From contig NZ_WOWO01000003.1 of assembly GCF_009831455.1 (NCBI RefSeq), positions 496,001 to 560,000 on the forward strand: a stretch of DNA of 64,000 nucleotides. The letters run 5' to 3'. The notes beneath the pieces were generated by a model. The model was not told the origin of the DNA. It did not search any database and saw only the letters and a program-made list of their open reading frames with translations. Positions 1,569-63,747 of the stretch are shown one piece after another. Source of the stretch: Salinirussus salinus (GTDB taxonomy: Archaea > Halobacteriota > Halobacteria > Halobacteriales > Haloarculaceae). Positions within the stretch are counted from its first letter, which is position 1. Each line of letters begins with the position of its first letter. The position numbers were made by a program, and so were the translations under genes.

Positions 1569-1800
1569 ACCACACGCCTCCCCAGCCGACTGCGGTGTCT
1601 GCTCACGGGCGCGCAGCGCCCGTTCCCACGGGCCGAGGCGGCTCCGCCGCCTCGCGGCTCGCTCACTGCGTTCGCTGCGCTCCTCATCCACCGGAAGGCT
1701 CGCCTGGCTCGCCTTCCGAGCCTTCTCTCGCTGCGCTCGGGAAGACCTCGCACGGCGGCTGTCGCAGCAGGGCCGCCGCGACAGCGTGCGCCCGACTCGA
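1569..1800 (+). repeat. Hairpin-rich intergenic element A, copy 1
   Basis: This non-coding stretch shares several blocks with the opposite strand of 63470-63579. They are a CACAC(G/A)CCTCCCCAGCCGA block, a CTCGCTCACT-like block and CCTCGCAC...GCGACAGCGTGCGCCCGACTC. The last block folds with an outer CGCAC/GTGCG stem around a different inner hairpin in each copy (GCTGTCGC/GCGACAGC here, GTCGCGGC/GCCGCGAC in the other). It also contains the hairpin GGAAGGC...GCCTTCC and the 55-bp double hairpin listed separately. The function is unknown. Confidence 0.6.
1601..1655 (+). repeat. 55-bp double-hairpin palindromic unit (intergenic copy)
   Basis: Two perfect 8-bp hairpins stand in tandem, ACGGGCGC/GCGCCCGT and GAGGCGGC/GCCGCCTC, each with a 3-nt loop. 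The unit aligns without gaps to 15839-15893 inside a protein-coding gene, with 48 of 55 positions identical. All seven differences fall in the loops or in the linker between the hairpins. Confidence 0.8.
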
Positions 1801-15088: not shown

Positions 15089-16399
15089 TCAGACCGACAC
15101 CGTCTCGCCGAGTTCGGGCGCGCTCGCGTCGTAGCCGTCGCCGCGGAGTTCGGCCGCGAAGTCGCCACACCGGTCGCCGTGGTTGACGAGCACCCTCGAG
15201 TCGCGGTAGGCGTCGAGGAAGGCGCACAGCCCGTCGCGGTCCGCGTGGGCGGAGAAGTCGTAGGATTCGACCTGCGCGGCGACGGGCATCACGCGGCCGT
15301 CGATCTCCGCGCTGCCGGTCTCCAGCAGTTCGCGGCCCGGCGTCCCCTCGACCTGGTAGCCCGTCAGCGTGATCTTGTTCGTCGGGTTGGACCGTATCTC
15401 GGGGATGTAGGTCATGGCAGGGCCACCAGACAGCATTCCACTGGTGGTGATGACCGCGGCCTTCTGATCGGTGATGCGCTTGCGCTGTCCATCGCGGCCG
15501 GTGACGAATCGCGCGTGAGACTTCGCACGTCGAAGCGCATCGGCATCGCGGACGAACCCGGGGTACTGACGAAGCATTTCGGTGACTTGCTTGCCCATTC
15601 CGTCGACGTAACACGGGATGTCGTACGCTTCACAGATGAGCATCATCTCCTGAGTGCGCCCGATGGCGAACGCCGGGACGACGACTGTCCCGCCTTCCCA
15701 GAGTGTCGTCTTGACGCTCTCGGCGAAGCGCTTCTCGACCTCCTCCCGGGGCCCGTGGTCGACGTCGGAGTAGGTGCTCTCGGTGAGGACGACGTCGGCG
15801 TCGGGCCGGGCCGTGGTGCCCGCCACCAGTCGCTGTCCGCTCACGGGCGCTTCGCGCCCGTTCGCGCGGCCCGAGGCGGCTCTGCCGCCTCGCTGATCCT
15901 CGGTGTGGAAGTCGCCGGTGTACAGCAGCCGGGTGTCGCCGTCGTCGACCAGGACGTGGGCGCTCCCGGGGATGTGGCCGGCGTCGAAGAACGTTATCTC
16001 GTGTCCCGCTGTCTCGAACGGTTCGCGGTAGCCGTGGGTCTCCGAGACCTGCGTGACCCGCTTGAGTTCGGCCTCGGTGAAGGGACAGTCGTAGGTCCCC
16101 CCGTGCAACTTCAGGGTGTCCCGGGCGAGCGTGAGCGCCAGCTCCCGGGTCGGCGGCGTCCAGTGGACCGGCGGCCGGCGGTCGCCGGAGAGGAGGGCGG
16201 GGACGGCTCCCGCGTGGTCGAGGTGACCGTGACTCACCACGACCGCCTCGGGGTCGAGCCCGGCGCCGCCGCGGGAGAGGCCGACCGGGAACTGCGGGGG
16301 GTTCGCGGTCTTCATCCCGTAATCGAGCAGGAGCTGGTCGTTGACGAGGACGGCGCTCCGGCCGACCTCGCCCGCCCCGCCGAGAAACCGCAGCTTCAT
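15089..16399 (-). CDS. MBL-fold beta-CASP-type nuclease with in-frame palindromic insert
   Basis: Predicted RNA-processing hydrolase of 436 aa, related to CPSF73/RNase J-type enzymes. The metal site is SHGHLDHAG (His57, His59, Asp61, His62), with further ligands in DAGHIPGSAH and YTGDFH. VVVPAFAIGRTQEMM and the later TSGMLSGGPA are beta-CASP features, and SAHADRDG is the C-terminal His motif. Residues 171-190 (GGRAASGRANGREAPVSGQR) interrupt the region between TGDFHTEDQR and LVAGTTARPDADVV. They are encoded by a palindromic repeat and look like an insertion into a surface loop. Confidence 0.92.
   Translation of the reverse strand: MKLRFLGGAGEVGRSAVLVNDQLLLDYGMKTANPPQFPVGLSRGGAGLDPEAVVVSHGHLDHAGAVPALLSGDRRPPVHWTPPTRELALTLARDTLKLHGGTYDCPFTEAELKRVTQVSETHGYREPFETAGHEITFFDAGHIPGSAHVLVDDGDTRLLYTGDFHTEDQRGGRAASGRANGREAPVSGQRLVAGTTARPDADVVLTESTYSDVDHGPREEVEKRFAESVKTTLWEGGTVVVPAFAIGRTQEMMLICEAYDIPCYVDGMGKQVTEMLRQYPGFVRDADALRRAKSHARFVTGRDGQRKRITDQKAAVITTSGMLSGGPAMTYIPEIRSNPTNKITLTGYQVEGTPGRELLETGSAEIDGRVMPVAAQVESYDFSAHADRDGLCAFLDAYRDSRVLVNHGDRCGDFAAELRGDGYDASAPELGETVSV
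15839..15893 (-). repeat. 55-bp double-hairpin unit inserted in a coding sequence
   Basis: This is the same two-hairpin unit as at 1601-1655, with both 8-bp stems perfect. It lies inside the beta-CASP gene and preserves the frame. The 6-bp sequence TCGCTG occurs at 15830-15835 and again at 15890-15895, exactly 60 bp apart. This looks like a target-site duplication plus a 20-codon expansion. Confidence 0.8.
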
Positions 16400-63592: not shown

Positions 63593-63747
63593 GAAAAGGG
63601 CGAGGCGTTGCGGGAAGCACGCCGTCCGCGGCGCGTCGCGCCGCGGGCTCGGGAGAGTTTCGCCCTCCCGGTGACGCAGGCACCGCAGGGAGCGAAGCGA
63701 CTGAGGCGCACAGCGAGGCGCGCGCCCGCAACGCCTCGGGGCTTTCT
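63593..63747 (+). repeat. Long-stem intergenic element B, copy 2
   Basis: A 14-bp perfect stem (63601-63614 with 63725-63738) replaces the stem of the copy at 1821. The flanks GAAAAGGG, AAGCACGC, GCGCACAGCGAGGCGCGCG and GGGCTTTCT are kept. An extra hairpin, CCGCGGCG/CGCCGCGG, lies inside (63626-63646). The spacer 63371-63939 holds no gene. Confidence 0.6.

Follow-up and report, generated by a model that had tools for sequence, protein, structure and literature searches.

In-frame double-hairpin palindromic repeats in a haloarchaeal beta-CASP nuclease gene and in other coding sequences of Halobacteria

Introduction

Rickettsia palindromic elements (RPEs) are palindromic repeats of about 150 bp that, according to two published accounts, comprise several families, lie in frame within unrelated protein genes, where they are translated, and also occur between genes (PMC10969869, PMC3733652). 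REPs (GTAG/CGTC, RAYT transposases) are small hairpin repeats that are mostly intergenic, with some intragenic copies, including one at about the same site in recB of two Xanthomonas species (PMC3733652). Among haloarchaea, Haloquadratum walsbyi harbors PATEs and small mobile repeats (SMRs), both short and transposase-free. PATEs have near-terminal palindromes, lack target duplications and include terminal-only forms of 52 bp; in-frame coding insertion of PATEs or SMRs was not found described in the same paper (PMC3119063).

The present study concerns a 64,000-nucleotide stretch of Salinirussus salinus DNA (hereafter the window), for which an earlier note, made from the letters alone, had proposed that a palindromic element lies in frame in a beta-CASP nuclease gene. 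To our knowledge, most known cases of palindromic repeats invading genes in frame come from Rickettsia and a few bacteria rich in REPs. The note had named no comparable haloarchaeal system, and we likewise found no prior account of in-frame coding palindromes in archaea among the open-access papers searched. MITEs, a further class considered here, are small non-autonomous repeats with terminal inverted repeats and often target duplications. In our reading, the feature is a double-hairpin palindromic repeat, mobile now or in the past, that entered the nuclease gene in frame at a tolerant surface loop; we assign this reading a probability of roughly 0.7.

Results

The host gene, the insert and its two hairpins are listed in Table 1. 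Because the hexamer TCGCTG is repeated, all placements of the 60-bp insert from 15830-15889 to 15836-15895 are equivalent, and cutting these 60 bp out of the gene leaves exactly the empty site that most orthologues have, reading ...HTEDQRLV... in the protein. The insert belongs to a family termed type A, whose covariance model R1 matched it at 15831-15895 on the minus strand (75.8 bits, E 4.9e-13); since the pairing in R1 proved to be out of register, all R1 matches rest on sequence. We reproduced the gap-free alignment of positions 15839-15893 with the intergenic segment 1601-1655, in which 48 of 55 nucleotides are identical. All seven differences had been placed outside the stems; this holds for the two main stems, which are intact, but position 15864 belongs to the short outer helix of 3 bp past the GA/GA internal loop. 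Low-complexity GC composition fails to explain the match, as R1 reached E values of ~1e-12 at only two places in the window and the family search returned 14 copies in the genome (E<=1e-3). An Rfam search with the element yielded no credible family.

Table 1 Features of the nuclease locus and of the related intergenic repeat in the window
Feature	Position	Strand	Basis
Host gene, beta-CASP metallo-beta-lactamase nuclease (KH domains absent), 436 aa	15089..16399	-	ORF; domain search: metallo-beta-lactamase PF00753, Beta-Casp PF10996, RMMBL PF07521
60-bp in-frame insert, type A double hairpin	15836..15895	-	absent from same-genus and most family orthologues; R1 match
Hairpin 1, 9-bp stem and 3-nt loop	15872..15892	-	sequence; covarying family helix, 6/9 pairs changed on both sides
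Hairpin 2, 8-bp stem, symmetric GA/GA internal loop, then 3-bp helix	15838..15866	-	sequence; family covariation
TCGCTG, left copy of apparent duplication	15830..15835	.	sequence
TCGCTG, right copy	15890..15895	.	sequence
Intergenic copy of type A family (L002), non-coding flanks	1593..1657	-	R1 71.6 bits, E 3.2e-12; 48/55 identical to insert

The two TCGCTG copies are present and spaced 60 bp apart, as first described. Their reading as a target-site duplication marking the element did not survive comparison across the family, where direct repeats at the borders were no more common than between unrelated copies. With border repeats at the chance rate, TCGCTG is poor evidence for target duplication, which we rule out as a mark of the insertion mechanism of type A.

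Orthologues were drawn from the family to which the window's genome (G000) belongs, represented by 146 genomes, one per species; all 146 contained a nuclease match, and about 90 orthologues were extracted. Most of them read HTxDQRLV and lack an insert, including the orthologue from the same genus (G145; protein 88% identical). The alignment confirmed that the 20 additional residues are absent at an empty HT-DQRLV site in most homologues, which supports the proposal of an in-frame palindromic insertion into a coding gene at a site that is empty in close relatives. The opposite pattern, with many genera carrying the same residues and no palindrome, was not seen: most homologues lack the residues, and those bearing an insert mostly have a double hairpin. 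The extra residues of insert-bearing orthologues are located at exactly the point of the window insert. One genome from another genus (G062) contains a near-identical type A copy, encoding the peptide RGGDAASGRANGREAPVSG, almost that of the window.

A different element, type B, occupies the window site in eleven genomes from six genera of the family and, outside it, in three orthologues from three other families of the order, giving four families overall. It is a double hairpin with the length and layout of type A, has different stem sequences and encodes peptides similar to RGSDAPASRTDRxGEPIRG, which are conserved over several families; the hairpins are conserved as well. Stem pair 34/54 of type B occurs as GC (nine), AU (four) and GU (one), with pairing kept even where the amino acid changes. 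When aligned in register, types A and B share 39-42 of 62 positions, whereas random double hairpins share 19 +/- 4 (the best of 5000 reaching 35). Because the agreement exceeds that of random double hairpins, type B looks like a diverged relative of type A. Type B was seen only at one site in the nuclease gene and is known from few genomes. Confinement to a single site is unexpected of an element that moves freely and would be consistent with a long-lived sequence that stays with the gene and is exchanged by recombination.

To locate the insert in the protein, the earlier note had suggested an RNase J/CPSF structure. An AlphaFold2 model of the nuclease (pLDDT 80.5) indeed had the archaeal CPSF subunit 3af5 as its closest PDB entry (TM 0.84). 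The insert, preceded by the YTGDFH motif of the metallo-beta-lactamase core, lies within residues 168-193, the longest stretch of the model with pLDDT <50. We infer that the insert is translated into a disordered loop that need not serve any function.

The window site is one of several in this gene. An all-insertion scan of the orthologues detected in-frame palindromic inserts at five core positions, 22, 96, 148, 165 (the window site) and 282; several palindromic families have inserted into the nuclease gene, at about five sites in all. At position 148, 11 extracted genes carry type C, a 45-bp double hairpin encoding DDSEVRSTSGSRTQS, and at position 96, six carry type D, for which the nuclease copies come from few genomes. 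Type C is also found in tandem at site 148, with three copies in L062 (G128) and two in L068 (G125), indicating that coding copies can expand in frame. Mutual exclusion between sites 148 and 165 was considered and rejected: no gene contains both inserts, yet this is not significant (P 0.16).

In a nuclease tree computed with the insert removed, insert-bearing genes clustered with congeneric genes that lack the insert. G000 paired with G145, G062 with G061 and G047-G049 with G050, and G090 was placed among empty g13 genes. The tree requires at least nine state changes at the window site and at least nine at site 148. The inserts themselves are more similar than their surroundings: the type A copies of G000 and G062 are 91% identical, compared to 74% for the gene, and the type B copies of G077 and G047 are 95% identical, compared to 78% for the gene and 78-80% for the adjacent 90-bp flanks. 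Insert identity exceeded flank identity also at third positions. Whole-gene transfer as the source of patchiness is ruled out by the grouping of insert-bearing genes with empty congeners, and movement of the small unit itself explains the pattern better.

The main rival to such movement, which we consider unlikely, is a single early insertion in Halobacteria, with hairpin and peptide selected where kept and with repeated precise deletion between short direct repeats restoring the empty gene. Palindromes flanked by direct repeats are a classic substrate for deletion. An ancient insertion would also suit the presence of type B at the same site in four families, the conservation of both its peptide and its hairpins, and a likeness between types A and B that goes beyond chance. 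However, for the inserts to be so much more similar than their flanks, selection would have to act strongly on a segment which the majority of lineages discarded without harm, and several other insert families at other sites of the same gene are equally patchy. Improbable to a greater degree is the idea that the 20-residue loop alters nuclease activity and is favored in some lineages, the palindrome being a by-product of its origin. The position of the loop beside a metal-binding motif, after YTGDFH, and the conservation of the type B peptide across several families are consistent with this idea, but the distribution is very patchy, the loop is predicted to be disordered, and a purely peptide constraint would not predict the paired changes that hold the type B stem at pair 34/54 despite amino-acid change.

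Type A sequences are dispersed: of 146 genomes, 100 had R1 matches, covering 21 of the 22 genera. A strict gapped pattern identified seven copies in G000 versus none for a reversed control, which again speaks against low-complexity composition as the source of the match. In the corrected register, 96.3% of the type A cells are paired, with a covariation score of 0.261 versus 0.080 after shuffling. For types A and C alike, none of 500 shuffles scored as high, and slid registers all scored far lower. Stem 1 of type A is freely variable with compensating changes; stem 2 contains the conserved GA/GA internal loop (helix 2: 97.9% of cells paired, 8/11 pairs changed on both sides). A codon-likelihood test on the flanks assigned coding flanks to only three of 62 distinct type A copies, two being the nuclease inserts and the third doubtful. 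The type A family is, therefore, essentially intergenic, and the two nuclease copies are exceptions. The original view of the element as a gene invader thus stands for the in-frame nuclease insert but was too narrow, as the window's own family is intergenic and the habitual in-frame families are types C and D. Copies of type A in G060 are identical over 65 bp, and their flanks soon diverge. In the window, GC-rich palindromic sequence continues past the intergenic type A copy (~1655-1760), so that a cluster of hairpins occupies a single spacer (1590-1780).

Most copies of types C and D lie within genes and, with few exceptions, in a single reading frame. The type C model found matches in every one of the 22 genera and in 134 of 146 genomes (at least 40 matches in one of them); its core pattern is Halobacteria-wide, and the matches listed included two bacterial ones that are probably due to chance. 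Its stems covary (score 0.372 versus 0.133 after shuffling). Among 57 type C copies with coding flanks, 54 share one frame (52 directly and two in the same frame with a shifted start), and the other three are weak antisense calls; these figures may overstate the coding share, since the model was seeded with coding copies. Eight of the 57 are from the nuclease itself. The other hosts comprise a short-chain dehydrogenase, pyridine-nucleotide reductases, histidine kinases, an enolase-superfamily enzyme, PolX, LeuC (aconitase family), P-type ATPases and PpsA, and further copies lie inside annotated CDS on plasmid records. For type D, coding flanks were found at 17 of 20 loci, in one frame after allowing for the alignment start. 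Inserts in many unrelated genes are thus a property of types C and D; type A is limited among genes to the nuclease, in two genera.

Empty sites also exist for type C. A dehydrogenase gene of G000 contains a copy as 48 bp between GAC and GAC, with a clean empty site in relatives. This insert is absent in the same genus (protein 91% identical) and in 27 other genes listed, and is shared only with G003. In Haloterrigena PpsA, the type C insert corresponds to a gap relative to the solved PpsA structure 8a8e. Histidine kinase genes (L237 1125-1265, L238 1109-1247, L241 1254-1304) contain type C units in tandem with the host motif SVEHGST of the N-box region, in arrays of SVEHGSTSSRTQSDDSVEHG; these look as if insertion had duplicated part of the ATP-binding motif. 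Type C-like units were also observed in non-coding DNA (L236, L261, L228, L233 and L234), in some cases arrayed and in three with TAG in the second hairpin.

It is very unlikely that the hairpins act in the mRNA and that the peptide is incidental, as would be the case if, for instance, the nuclease regulated its own transcript through an element controlling cleavage or stability. In favor of this reading, the host enzyme is of an RNA-processing type, the stems covary, the GA/GA internal loop of type A is typical of RNA, and types C and D have the sense orientation in their coding copies. However, coding constraint accounts for the orientation bias, most orthologues do without the element, similar elements are present in dehydrogenases, PpsA, LeuC, PolX, kinases and ATPases, and an Rfam match is absent.

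Candidate movers and carriers were sought in the genomes and in viral and plasmid sequences. Y1 transposase (PF01797) gave no match in G000, which is 99.8% complete, and was present in nine of 20 relatives; a resident Y1/IS200 transposase as the mover is thereby ruled out. Around 19 Y1 genes of relatives, we found no type A match and only weak, unconvincing type C matches. Viral carriage was rejected, as type A was absent from the viral contigs and type C occurred in one of them only; phage records contained no type C. The plasmid search returned a single chance match in Streptomyces for type A and nothing for type B. The one viral contig, L407 (IMGVR_UViG_3300035698_004408), contains the type C core pattern.

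Discussion

Halobacteria hold several families of 45-65 bp elements composed of hairpin 1, a short linker and hairpin 2, with covarying stems. Their insertion into genes is precise and in frame, relatives have empty sites, copies are dispersed, stems are conserved by paired changes, and one frame is preferred. We propose that the elements insert at new sites as short units of DNA, with the hairpins acting as putative recognition features for a copying or inserting machinery; such recognition would explain the conservation of the stems by paired changes. Purifying selection would then leave only harmless in-frame copies, in which length, frame and a polar, disordered, loop-compatible peptide are tolerated. 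Repeated insertion at the same sites may reflect a shortage of tolerant positions or a suitable target sequence. A wider proposal is that coding palindromic elements form a class-wide system in haloarchaea, in which several 45-65 bp double-hairpin families with a fixed frame provide ready-made disordered loops, hit genes such as that of the beta-CASP nuclease multiple times and move without a known host-genome transposase. This proposal is tentative, and we rate it at somewhat less than even odds.

The described systems closest in kind are RPEs and intragenic REPs. The resemblance to RPEs noted at the outset is borne out by in-frame position, palindromic structure and sites that are empty in relatives (nuclease, dehydrogenase and PpsA). 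RPEs and the haloarchaeal elements further share a structure kept across copies (covariation) and, for types C and D, unrelated host genes. They differ in size, with 100-150 bp for RPEs and 45-65 bp for the haloarchaeal double hairpins, a comparison made by description. Like the REP/RAYT system, the elements are small hairpin repeats that in some cases lie in genes, at roughly the same site in related species. Unlike REPs, the aligned copies have no conserved GTAG or CGTC at either end, G000 lacks a Y1 transposase and two of the haloarchaeal families are mainly coding. PATEs are likewise short, transposase-free haloarchaeal repeats and, as with type A, occur without target duplication, but a link to IS605-type ends was not found around the Y1 genes of relatives, where type C matches were weak. 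With MITEs, the elements share small size, dispersal and the lack of a transposase gene; they differ in consisting of two separate hairpins and in showing no excess of duplications.

With several families in Halobacteria, near relatives that have the empty sites, and species amenable to genetics, it becomes testable how repeats spread through coding sequence without protein breakage and whether such inserts supply new protein loops. There is also a warning for annotation, as some short haloarchaeal protein loops, for example DSExRSxSGSRTQSGD, are repeat-derived. In the haloarchaeal PpsA genes L191 and L229, the type C insert is located at two different positions. The window itself contains a weak type C-like double hairpin at 63621-63675 (17.4 bits).
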